Below are positions 7,504 through 26,047 of a DNA stretch of 64,000 nt, in pieces. Under the pieces are notes generated by a model. It was not told the origin of the DNA. It worked only from the letters and a program-made list of their open reading frames with translations, and did not search any database. This DNA is from Candidatus Sumerlaea chitinivorans. GTDB lineage: Bacteria; Sumerlaeota; Sumerlaeia; Sumerlaeales; Sumerlaeaceae. The DNA is taken from positions 2,244,572 through 2,308,571 of the forward strand of contig CP030759.1 in the NCBI GenBank assembly GCA_003290465.1, given 5' to 3'. The translations under genes were made by a program, and so were the position numbers. Position 1 is the first letter of the stretch; every line of letters begins with the position of its first letter.

Positions 7504-7581
7504 GACCAACGAGGTCCTGTATTTTCTCCATCGAGTGGTCCGTGGGACCACCACATCTTACTCTTGAAAACGAGACCAGCC

Positions 7582-8340
7582 ATGAGATCTCGGACAAGCC
7601 GACGCAAGTTTCTGCTCACCATTGGAGCCGCAGCACCCGCTCTTGCCGCCGTCACCTCCAACCTGCTCCACGCGGCCGAAGGCACCACCGGTAGCGCCGC
7701 CCAGCAATCGGCGGCCACGGCGTCTACGGGGGGCCCCTTCACCCTGCCACCGCTTGGCTACGCCTACGAGGCGCTCGAGCCAACCATCGACGCCCAAACC
7801 ATGCGCCTCCACCACGGCAAGCACCACGCCGCGTACGTCGAGAACCTCAACAAAGCCATCGCAGCGCATCCGGAGCTTGCCAACTGGAGCCTTGAGAAGC
7901 TGCTGACGAACCTCTCAGCCGTCCCCGCGTCCGCCCAGACCGCAGTGCGGAATCACGGAGGCGGCCACTGGAACCACACCTTTTTCTGGAAACTCATGAC
8001 TCCCGGCGGGGCCAAGCAACCTTCGGGCGAGCTCGCCGACGCCATCCAAAGCACCTTCGGCGACTTTGCGAACTTCAAACGCCTCTTCGAAGAAGCCGGC
8101 GCCAAGGTCTTCGGCTCCGGGTGGGTGTGGCTTGTCCGTACCCCCGAAGGCAAGCTTCAAATCACGACCACCCCAAATCAGGACACGCTGATATCTTCGG
8201 GCCAGACCCCTATTCTCGGCAATGACGTCTGGGAACACGCCTACTATCTGAAATACCAAAACCGCCGTGGCGAGTACCTCAAGGCTTGGTGGAACGTCGT
8301 GAACTGGGACGTCGCAGCCGCAAATTTCGCGCAAAAATAA
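7582..8340 (+). CDS. Tat-exported Mn/Fe superoxide dismutase
   Basis: Iron/manganese-family superoxide dismutase carrying a twin-arginine signal ([10 protein letters not shown] followed by an Ala-rich helix). It should fold in the cytoplasm and act in the periplasm or outside the membrane. Metal ligands are visible in [13 protein letters not shown] and NDVWEHAYY. Gly in GGGH and Gln in TPNQD are features more typical of Mn enzymes than Fe enzymes. The dismutase domain (about residues 52-252) closely resembles the second SOD at 25436-26047. The ATG at 7582 is used; a TTG at 7564 in the same frame is an alternative and would add six residues before the Tat motif. The gene follows the PIN-TRAM gene by 78 bases. 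Confidence 0.92.
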
Positions 8341-19353: not shown

Positions 19354-20334
19354 CTAACTTGTTAGCATTACCTGCTCAGGCTGCCGGCGGGTCAGCTCGA
19401 AGAAGAACTGCCTCAGCGTCTTGCGCTGCGGGATGAATGCGCGCGGCGTTAGCCCACGCTCCACGAGTTCCTCAATCAGGCGTGTGGCAAGGCCCTGCTT
19501 CACGCGGATCCAAAGCGCATTCTCGCCTAAGAGCGCGGCAGCCACGGCCTCGCCCTCGGGCGTCGCGAGGATTTCCACTCCCTCACGCGCCTCAAGGTAG
19601 CGCTGCGCCGCCGCGCGCTTCTCAGCGTTCTCAAACAGCAGCAAGTAGTCTTCCTTGGAAAAGAAGAGGAGCTTGCGCACCTCATCGCATGCCACCAAAA
19701 CGCCTCGATTGATGACGGCGATGCGGTTACAGCCCTCTTCCACTTCGTGGAGCAGATGGCTGGAAATGAAGATCGTGATCCGTTCCTGTGCCACCAAGTT
19801 GCGCAGGAGTTCCCACACGCGCACGCTGCCCTCGGGATCGAGTCCGCTCGTTGGCTCATCGAGCAGGAGGAGTTTAGGCTTCGCGAGCAAGGCCTGCGCG
19901 ATACCCAAGCGCTGACGCATGCCGTGCGAATAATCCTCCACGCGATCGCGCGCCCGATCGCGCAACCCTACCAGCTCAAGCACTTCATCCACACGCGTGC
20001 GAGGAATGCCGGGCTGAAGGCGGGCGAGGATCTCGAGATTTTTGCGCGCCGACAAGAATTCGTAGAACGCGGGAACTTCGATGAGCATCCCCATCTGCGA
20101 GCGCACACGCAGAAAATCCGTGTGTGGTCGGCCGAAGATCTCAATCTCGCCCCCGCTCGGGTGCACGAGACCCGCGATCATATACATCGTCGTGGATTTC
20201 CCCGCGCCGTTCGGGCCGAGGAACCCGAAAATATCGCCCTCGTACACGTCAAACGAAATCCCCGCCACGGCGGTCACACGGCCAAACCGCTTGCTCAGAT
20301 TTCTCACTCGTAAGACGACCGGTGGCGTGGTCAT
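19354..20334 (-). CDS. ABC transporter ATP-binding protein
   Basis: ATPase subunit of 326 residues. It contains Walker A GPNGAGKST, the signature YSHGMRQRLG, Walker B LLLLDEPTSGLDP and the H-loop in ISSHLLHEVEE. The C-terminal ~90 residues resemble the extension of ABC-2-type export ATPases. No permease gene follows in this window: the next feature is DUF4432 after 181 bases, so it is an orphan or pairs with a subunit encoded elsewhere. Its ATG overlaps the stop of the RadC-fusion gene by 4 bases (ATGA), implying coupled translation. The exported substrate is unknown. Confidence 0.88.
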   Translation of the reverse strand: MTTPPVVLRVRNLSKRFGRVTAVAGISFDVYEGDIFGFLGPNGAGKSTTMYMIAGLVHPSGGEIEIFGRPHTDFLRVRSQMGMLIEVPAFYEFLSARKNLEILARLQPGIPRTRVDEVLELVGLRDRARDRVEDYSHGMRQRLGIAQALLAKPKLLLLDEPTSGLDPEGSVRVWELLRNLVAQERITIFISSHLLHEVEEGCNRIAVINRGVLVACDEVRKLLFFSKEDYLLLFENAEKRAAAQRYLEAREGVEILATPEGEAVAAALLGENALWIRVKQGLATRLIEELVERGLTPRAFIPQRKTLRQFFFELTRRQPEQVMLTS

Positions 20335-21854
20335 GTCGGCGCTATCTCTCCATTCTCCGCGAAACTATAGTACTCATCCGCACCCACAATCACATGGTCA
20401 AGCACTCGTATGCCAAGCGTTTGGCCGACTTCGACCAACCGGCGTGTCAAAGCACGATCCTCGGCGCTGGGTCGCGGATCACCACTCGGATGATTGTGCA
20501 GCAGGATCACCGCCGCCGCACTTTCGCGCACCGCGTCACGAAAGACGTCGCGGGGGTGGACGATACTTGAGTTCAACGTCCCACGCGAAACACACCGCTG
20601 ACCCATCAGCCGGTTTTTCGTGTTCAAAAGCACCACCCAAAACTCCTCCTGGCCCTTGCCCTGAAACAGGGTCCGAAAATGCTCGAACACCGCACGTGGC
20701 CGGCTCATCTCCCGCGCGGTAACGCGAGGATCACCGGACGCGGCCCACGCCCGCCGCCCCAACTCGAATGCCGCTTTCAGCGACGCTGCTTTCGCTGGGC
20801 CCACCCCACCAACTCTCGCCTCGCGAAGCTTGGCCATGATTTCGCCGGGTGCGGCTGCACCGATTCGCGCAAGGCTCCCGCCGAATGCCTCCAGGATCCC
20901 CCGCGCAAGCTCGACCGCGCTCAGCTGCGGGGTCCCACTCCCCAACACAATCGCCATGAGCTCTGCATCGCTGAGGTCCCGCCCTTCAAGCAGACGCTCG
21001 CGCGGACGCTCCGTTTCGCTCCATTCGCGAATAGGGCGGCGCAGCTTTGGCTGCCTGTTTGCCGACGCATGGCGCGCATGTTCGCAGAGGTGGGCGACCG
21101 GGCAGAGATCGCATTTCGGCCGACCGGCACAGCGTGCAGTCGCCGCATTTCCCCGCACAGCTCCTGCGAAAAAGGCGAAGAGCATGCTGACCTCGGCCGG
21201 CGGCACTGCGGCCAAATGGGCCACTCGAGCCACTTGCTCCTGAAACTCTTCGCGTGCCGACTTCGTCTTCGGCTGAGCTCGCACCACCCCAAGGCGAAAT
21301 AGAAACGTCACCGAACGAGCATGCGCAACAGCGATCGGATAGCCGATCCGCGCAAGAAAATCCACAGCACTAAGCTCAGTAAGCGAGCGACAACTTGCGC
21401 GCACCAACCTGACGGCACCCTTTATATTGGGTTCGCGAGCCAGCGCATGGAGCAGGCGCCGCAGCTCCTCATCACTTCCCGCCAGCTCAGCAAAGTTCCG
21501 ACTGCGCTCCTCTTGCTGAAGGGCAGAGTGGGGCGCCTCGGCTGTGGGCATTGCGACAACCGAGGCGTTCGATTCAGCGACCGAAAGCTCGTCGTGTGCA
21601 ACGACCTCGCGAGAGTTCCGACGGAGTGCCTGCGCAACGAACGCCCTGACCGCGCGACGTCCCACGGGGGTATCGGCGGGTTGGCCGAGCAGGCATTGCG
21701 CCAGCGCGTCGCGCACCGCCTCGGGGGCGACGTCGGGGAATGCGCGGGCCCGCGAGCGCAAGCGGCTAAGTTCCTCGTCCAAATCGGGATTCTGGCTAAG
21801 CACGAACGCGCGCACCGCCTCGAGCGCGTCCACAAATTCGAAGTTGCTGAGCAT
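20331..21854 (-). CDS. fusion of EndoIII-like Fe-S domain and RadC JAB domain
   Basis: Protein of 507 residues with an unusual architecture. The C-terminal ~230 residues are a complete RadC (DUF2466): helix-hairpin-helix GVGPAKAASLKAA, then a JAB/MPN metal site LLHNHPSGDPRPSAED. The region before it resembles the endonuclease III HhH-GPD fold and ends in C-x5-C-x2-C-x5-C (around residues 240-257), which fits the 4Fe-4S loop apart from one missing spacer residue. The catalytic Lys and Asp positions of EndoIII (G-V-G-x-K and V-D-T-H) are not recognisable, so the glycosylase half may only bind DNA. ATG 21854 is preferred. A longer frame to 22043 adds 63 residues that look non-coding. RadC's function is itself unsettled. 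Confidence 0.8.
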   Translation of the reverse strand: MLSNFEFVDALEAVRAFVLSQNPDLDEELSRLRSRARAFPDVAPEAVRDALAQCLLGQPADTPVGRRAVRAFVAQALRRNSREVVAHDELSVAESNASVVAMPTAEAPHSALQQEERSRNFAELAGSDEELRRLLHALAREPNIKGAVRLVRASCRSLTELSAVDFLARIGYPIAVAHARSVTFLFRLGVVRAQPKTKSAREEFQEQVARVAHLAAVPPAEVSMLFAFFAGAVRGNAATARCAGRPKCDLCPVAHLCEHARHASANRQPKLRRPIREWSETERPRERLLEGRDLSDAELMAIVLGSGTPQLSAVELARGILEAFGGSLARIGAAAPGEIMAKLREARVGGVGPAKAASLKAAFELGRRAWAASGDPRVTAREMSRPRAVFEHFRTLFQGKGQEEFWVVLLNTKNRLMGQRCVSRGTLNSSIVHPRDVFRDAVRESAAAVILLHNHPSGDPRPSAEDRALTRRLVEVGQTLGIRVLDHVIVGADEYYSFAENGEIAPT

Positions 21855-25056: not shown

Positions 25057-25435
25057 AGGTTGCCGCCTTTCGCCTGAGGTACATACACATGCCAGTCGGT
25101 TTTCAATCGCCCTGAGGCCGCCAAGCACCGCCCCAAGTGAGTCCGGGGCTCCTCTCCCCCCGCGGGAAGGCCGGTCTATTCGCCTGCACGCCAATAAGCG
25201 TGCGCGTTCACCGGCCTCGCTTCTCGGGCCCTAAATTCCCCTGCAAGAGAACTCCCAACTGGCGTTCAACAGATCTGCGTTCTTAAAGACGTCGAAATCC
25301 CGCACAATCGTTGAATGAAAAAGCGGGACAAAAATAGTACACAATGAAACATCAAGTAAGTCCGCTCAAGCGGACTCGCATCTGGGGTGAAAAACGAAAC
25401 AGACTGACACAATCTTGTCAGAGGAGAGAAAATCA
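25057..25435. other. divergent intergenic region panD / SOD
   Basis: About 380 bases between divergently transcribed panD and the cytosolic SOD gene. No gene is seen. The SOD-proximal 80 bases hold two dyad symmetries, listed separately. The rest shows nothing I can name. Confidence 0.4.
25359..25421 (+). promoter_or_regulatory. two dyads upstream of the SOD gene, possible operator
   Basis: AGTCCGCT (25359-25366) and AGCGGACT (25369-25376) form a perfect 8-bp dyad with a 2-base spacer, too tight for a normal hairpin and typical of a dimeric repressor site. CTGACA (25404-25409) and TGTCAG (25416-25421) form a second 6-bp dyad whose last base is the first base of the SOD Shine-Dalgarno GAGGAG. 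Either could tune the SOD. No regulator is encoded next to it. Confidence 0.4.
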
Positions 25436-26047
25436 ATGCCACACGAAGTTCCCCCCCTACCCTACGCGTACAACGCACTCGAACCCTACATTGACGAACA
25501 AACGATGATCCTGCACCACGATAAGCATCATGCCGCCTACGTTACGAACCTCAATGCGGCTCTTGAGGGATACCCCGATTTGCAGTCAAAGTCGATCGAA
25601 GAGCTGATTCGCAACTTGTCCGCCGTTCCCGAAGCCATCCGCACTGCGGTTCGCAATCATGGCGGCGGGCACCTCAACCACACGATTTTCTGGGACATCA
25701 TGACCCCCGGCGGCGCGAAGCAGCCAGTCGGCGAGCTTGCCGAGGCCATCAACGCCACGTTCGGGAGTTTCGAGAATTTCAAGAAACAGTTTAACGATGC
25801 CGGACTCAAGCGCTTCGGCTCAGGCTGGGCTTGGCTAATCGTCACGAATGCCGGCAAACTCGAAGTGGTGTCCACCGCCAATCAGGACAGCCCACTGAGC
25901 GAAGGTCACCACGTGGTGATCGGCAACGACGTTTGGGAACACGCCTACTATCTCAAGTACCAGAACCGCCGCGGTGAGTATCTCGAGGCGTGGTGGAATG
26001 TGGTCAACTGGGATAAAGCGCTCGAGCGCTTCAAGGCGGCAAAATAG
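25436..26047 (+). CDS. superoxide dismutase (Mn/Fe family), cytosolic
   Basis: Superoxide dismutase of 203 residues without a signal sequence. Metal-ligand segments [13 protein letters not shown] and NDVWEHAYY are intact, and the Gly in GGGH plus Gln in TANQDSPLS suggest Mn or cambialistic use. It shares the long block [20 protein letters not shown] with the Tat-exported SOD at 7582, so the two are likely paralogues divided between compartments. ATG 25436 has GAGGAG 9 bases upstream; a TTG at 25415 is rejected. A strong terminator follows at 26113. Confidence 0.95.

Follow-up and report, generated by a model that had tools for sequence, protein, structure and literature searches.

The fusion gene and its RadC part

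The window, a stretch of 64,000 nucleotides from Candidatus Sumerlaea chitinivorans, contains on its reverse strand a gene in which RadC is preceded by a long N-terminal front domain (Table 1). The initial annotation, which described this ORF as RadC fused to a domain resembling the Fe-S DNA-binding part of endonuclease III (EndoIII), had its strand, coordinates and reading frame right. The fusion gene is the single RadC gene of the genome according to a search of the one 3,289,105-bp contig.

Table 1. Features of the HhH-GPD/Fe-S-RadC fusion gene and its downstream neighbor (positions in the window)
Feature	Residues	Position	Strand	Basis
Whole gene, HhH-GPD/Fe-S-RadC fusion	1-507	20331..21854	-	ATG at 21854, stop 20331-20333, 507 aa
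N-terminal helical segment and variable linker	1-127	21474..21854	-	helices in L091 model
HhH-GPD-like helical core	128-232	21159..21473	-	PDB profile matches Ogg2/EndoIII; Foldseek of L091
Degenerate hairpin and stretch aligned to EndoIII catalytic Lys/Asp	157-190	21285..21386	-	alignments
His178 codon, catalytic Asp column (EndoIII Asp138 equivalent)	178	21321..21323	-	hhalign to Nth, column counts
C-x5-C-x2-C-x5-C, putative EndoIII-type Fe-S loop	242-257	21084..21131	-	PF10576 E=0.001-0.002, slightly under cut-off
UPF0758_N, RadC helix-hairpin-helix part	275-357	20784..21032	-	PF20582 E=1.6e-18
RadC JAB domain	384-502	20349..20705	-	PF04002 E=6.8e-46
JAMM core H-x-H-x7-S-x2-D	453-466	20457..20498	-	sequence, column counts
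ABC transporter ATPase, downstream neighbor, not a proposed part		19354..20334	-	overlap 4 bp (ATGA)

That the protein contains a full RadC, with both the helix-hairpin-helix (HhH) part and the JAB metal site, was borne out by family models. It scores above the cut-offs of PF04002 (155.6 bits, cut-off 22.1), PF20582 (67 bits, cut-off 27.1) and NF000642 (216.7, cut-off 180). The JAMM residues E403, H453, H455, S463, and D466 are all present and, judged from column counts, near-invariant among the relatives. The JAB domain resembles that of the solved RadC structure 2qlc by sequence as well as by predicted fold, and UPF0758_N is matched by all 30 class members analyzed (30/30).

The ABC transporter ATPase gene adjoins the fusion gene in 7/7 members of its own family, and other genes are found at this place elsewhere; in the second phylum described below the neighbor is an RrmJ/FtsJ-like methyltransferase, as judged by eye. 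Neighbors are conserved within families only and provide no repair operon context. A role in a defence system was rejected, as PADLOC gave only weak generic JAB matches. Two other ORFs in the window (7564-8340 and 25415-26047, forward strand) resemble Fe/Mn superoxide dismutases by eye, and one of them has a twin-arginine-like leader.

Distribution of the fusion

The initial annotation proposed a search for other HhH-GPD-RadC fusions, and such a search found them throughout the class, in a second phylum and in one further genome. Within the class the fusion occurs in 34 of the 38 other genomes, in one of them split over two contigs, and its architecture is collinear across the relatives. Two of the remaining four genomes have a RadC that is cut at a contig end, and the other two are 66–71% complete and have no RadC match. 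The five class relatives found by a six-sequence profile all belong to Candidatus Sumerlaeota/Sumerlaeia. The one genome from another class of the phylum gave no RadC match. A tree of the JAB domain largely follows the families within the class and has too few columns to tell a single origin of the fusion from a repeated one.

Among about 350 genomes of other phyla, the fusion was seen only in genome G086 and in the phylum of G259 and G118. In this second phylum it is present in about 30 of 52 genomes (25 by the first profile and five more by the RadC search), and most of the genomes examined have no RadC other than the long form; those short RadC copies that could be read are without the cysteine motif. 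The front domains of the class and of the second phylum are homologous (hhalign prob 98, E=9e-14). A profile of second-phylum sequences alone found no HhH-GPD match in PDB, and its link goes via the class profile. UPF0758_N is undetectable in 19 of 19 second-phylum sequences, with its G-h-G largely lost, and the JAMM residues and the four cysteines are intact. In the third lineage (G086, L051:4419-5864) the HhH-GPD part is shortened, but none of the four cysteines is missing and RadC is intact. These searches confirm that RadC is joined to a glycosylase-derived, putative Fe-S domain in a conserved arrangement that extends across phyla. No relatives of the fusion were found in the viral contigs searched.

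Genome G036 contains, beside a standard copy (L016), a second divergent paralogue of the fusion (L059:1315-2820), in which a VESREIF-type segment is found instead of VHPRE near the JAMM site. The 9.7-Mb second-phylum genome G417 has five short RadC copies (L177, L188, L190, L193, and L194) in addition to the fusion, and these short copies are perhaps located on mobile elements.

Fold of the front domain

When the front domain was scanned as a single sequence against family models, all matches were sub-threshold, none reaching a curated cut-off, and PF00730 was not matched. Profiles were therefore built from 30 relatives and run against the full set of PDB sequences. A few weak matches to unrelated chains aside, they matched HhH-GPD glycosylases only, among them the Fe-S loop of EndoIII (8a5c, E=8e-4) and the core of Ogg2 (9o00, E=8e-4 to 1e-3). 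Comparison with hhalign gave prob 94.8 and E=5e-8 for Nth of the same and related genomes, and prob 94.1 and E=1e-7 for MutY, both being one-to-one E-values.

The full-length AF2 model of the 507-aa protein is good for RadC only and poor in the front domain, and the fold of the latter is therefore assigned by homology. The front domain of the relative L091, which shares ∼26% identity with that of the 507-aa protein, was modeled from a 6-row alignment (pLDDT 79.4, pTM 0.77). The best 50 PDB folds found with Foldseek for this model are all HhH-GPD glycosylases (prob 0.85–1.0), with Thermotoga Ogg at the top (prob 1.00, TM 0.69 normalized to target). The Foldseek E-values are modest (best 8.6e-3), and the weight rests on the consistency of the matches. 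The initial annotation had made its reading of the helical front domain depend on HhH-GPD similarity in a profile search, and this similarity was found both there and in the structure search with the L091 model. Homology thus identifies the front domain as a diverged HhH-GPD glycosylase domain that carries a putative Fe-S loop of the EndoIII type. In the alignment of class relatives, this domain does not conserve the canonical G-h-G hairpin.

Among close pairs the front domain is under purifying selection, with dN/dS mostly 0.05–0.3 (some saturated pairs have no value); the JAB domain has lower values, mostly 0.02–0.12. Residues 1–127 are the least conserved part (dN/dS 0.14–0.38), and residues 128–272 have a net charge of +11.

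The cysteine motif

The four-Cys loop sits on the C-terminal side of the HhH-GPD domain, as in EndoIII-type Fe-S proteins, and reads C242-x5-C248-x2-C251-x5-C257. There are 7 Cys among the 507 residues, and such a motif appeared in 3 of 200,000 shuffles of the protein. The Fe-S Pfam model PF10576 matches slightly under its cut-off (E=0.001–0.002), and 17 of the 30 class members match it at E<=1. Conservation in the front domain is highest at the motif cysteines, with Cys in 30, 29, 30, and 30 of the 30 class sequences at the successive columns; all four are present together in 29/30 sequences of the class and 19/19 of the second phylum, and Pro246 is invariant in both groups. The likening of this cluster to the EndoIII Fe-S loop, which the initial annotation would have given up had the cysteines varied among homologs, agrees with this conservation and with the profile and alignment matches. 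In one class member (L029 of genome G019) Tyr replaces the second cluster cysteine (CGEKPFYSKCPLANYC).

The canonical EndoIII spacing is x6-2-5, as found in Nth of the same genome (CQARKPQCDRCPLTELC). The fusion relatives L004 and L005 have the canonical x6, and most class members have x5. We infer that the front domain probably carries a [4Fe-4S]-type cluster.

Catalytic residues

The alignments to Ogg2 and to Nth, which are independent of each other, both place the catalytic Asp at column 178. This residue is His in the 507-aa protein, and among the 30 class sequences it is Asp in 18, Glu in 4, and Ser in 4. No member of the protein's own family has Asp (0/7), whereas 18 of the 23 class members outside this family have it and Glu occurs in 3 of the others. 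The position of the lyase Lys corresponds to column 160 or 161; Lys is found there in 1/30 sequences, and it is conserved nowhere among the relatives aligned. In the second phylum, for which 17 sequences were listed, there is no Asp in the corresponding register before a conserved R-x-W-x-R-F motif.

The expected Lys and Asp are as invisible as the initial annotation had stated. Its further reading of the domain as catalytically dead is likely to be right for the 507-aa protein, which has no such Lys and has His for Asp, but is unproven for the family because the Asp persists in most of the relatives that lie outside this protein's own family, a point that could not be read from the single sequence used for the initial annotation. 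Judged from these alignments, lyase chemistry by the front domain is very unlikely and glycosylase chemistry by the 507-aa protein is unlikely. The loss of glycosylase chemistry in the Asp-bearing relatives, L091 among them, is unproven, since an HhH-GPD protein with Ser for Asp is an active glycosylase (PMC11754123).

Proposed role and alternative explanations

RadC is widespread in bacteria and its role is disputed; to our knowledge no substrate has been described for its JAB domain. That the fusion is conserved through most of one class and in a large part of a second phylum suggests that DNA is what RadC acts on. Since the RadC HhH has decayed in the second phylum while the Fe-S loop has been kept, the front domain seems to have taken over the DNA contact. 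Retention of the fusion despite decay of RadC's own DNA-binding hairpin is evidence, at the level of domain architecture, for a function of RadC on DNA. Context has likewise been used in published work (PMC5512222, PMC3482391) to argue for nucleic acids as the target of the RadC JAB domain.

We consider it rather probable that the front domain serves as an Fe-S binder of DNA structure, without catalytic activity of its own, and positions the RadC metal site on DNA. It would bind double-stranded DNA via its HhH and Fe-S loop, the target probably being bent, abasic or otherwise distorted DNA, and would not cut the base. Binding would bring the RadC HhH and the JAB metal centre to the DNA, and there the JAB centre might cleave or process nucleic acid, or a protein adduct on the DNA. 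A DNA-structure or damage role, as put forward in the initial annotation, is a plausible one for the fusion. More tentatively, and with considerable doubt, RadC might here be a lesion- or structure-guided nucleic-acid processor, in which a disabled Fe-S glycosylase locates distorted DNA for cutting by the JAB metal site. If this reading of lesion-guided cutting is true, the RadC family would gain a biochemical activity. The fusion protein also offers a handle for finding the target DNA of RadC through the front domain.

The clusters of EndoIII and MutY are chiefly known for structural and DNA-binding roles, and the L091 model retains the whole HhH-GPD fold, beyond the cluster loop. Both points make it unlikely that the Fe-S cluster, rather than binding DNA, serves mainly to regulate RadC as a redox or oxidative-stress switch, although such a switch would fit with Fe-S conservation that outlasts the glycosylase residues and with the fusion of RadC-like domains to DinG helicases with Fe-S domains (PMC11981726).

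The front domain might instead be an active, perhaps monofunctional, glycosylase, with RadC acting on its product, e.g., an abasic site. The Asp or Glu found at the catalytic column in most class members outside the protein's own family and the active Ser-for-Asp protein mentioned above speak for this. We nevertheless regard it as quite unlikely, given that the lyase Lys is conserved nowhere and that both the own family and the listed second-phylum sequences are without the Asp.

A motif of four Cys alone cannot separate Zn from Fe-S, and most class members have x5 where the canonical EndoIII spacing is x6. The cysteines could accordingly bind zinc in a protein-interaction module without DNA contact. 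This is improbable, as the loop aligns with the Fe-S loops of EndoIII and MutY, with which it shares the Pro and, in many cases, a basic residue preceding Cys2, and as EndoIII-related proteins with x5 exist (L052 and L061).

A chance or annotation artefact, be it the joint reading of two neighboring genes or a remnant in decay, is contradicted by the conserved continuous frame (∼34 class relatives and ∼30 second-phylum genomes) and by the purifying selection on the front domain, and is highly improbable even though in the G259 copy (L054:2433-3305, reverse strand, and following bases) one in-frame stop separates the Fe-S part from a JAB that is otherwise intact. The stop in G259 could be a sequencing error or a sign of a broken gene.

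Comparison with known systems

In the literature searched no published account of an HhH-GPD/RadC fusion was found, which is not proof of novelty. Only two papers there bring HhH, DNA glycosylase and RadC together, and both look unrelated by title and abstract; RadC is not mentioned in a review of extra domains in glycosylases. The fusion shares the HhH, the JAB domain and all JAMM residues with RadC (UPF0758; PF04002, PF20582, TIGR00608; 2qlc). Usual RadC proteins are ∼220–240 aa long, whereas the fusion has ∼270 more N-terminal residues with the HhH-GPD/Fe-S domain. Escherichia coli radC mutants have normal sensitivity to DNA damage.

The RadC-like DinG proteins (PMC11981726) also have a RadC-like JAB domain and an Fe-S protein acting on DNA in one chain. 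In DinG, however, the Fe-S protein is a helicase and the RadC-like part is N-terminal, while in the fusion the partner is a glycosylase-derived domain and RadC is C-terminal; no helicase family, and hence no SF2 helicase domain, is among the family-scan matches of the 507-aa protein. PMC11981726 describes the RadC-like DinG proteins as uncharacterized and cites "RadC, a misleading name?" for the lack of a repair phenotype.

With the HhH-GPD glycosylases (Nth, MutY and archaeal/Thermotoga Ogg2) the fusion has in common the predicted fold, the Fe-S loop and the position of the Asp-bearing segment. It differs from them in the missing lyase Lys, the change from Asp to His, the hairpin glycines that are not conserved and the unmatched PF00730. 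A related case is Mag2 of fission yeast, which is not known to have glycosylase activity. Mag2 is distant from the fusion and without a RadC part, but as an HhH-GPD homolog that sculpts abasic DNA (4b21, with abasic DNA; Foldseek rank 47) it provides a precedent.
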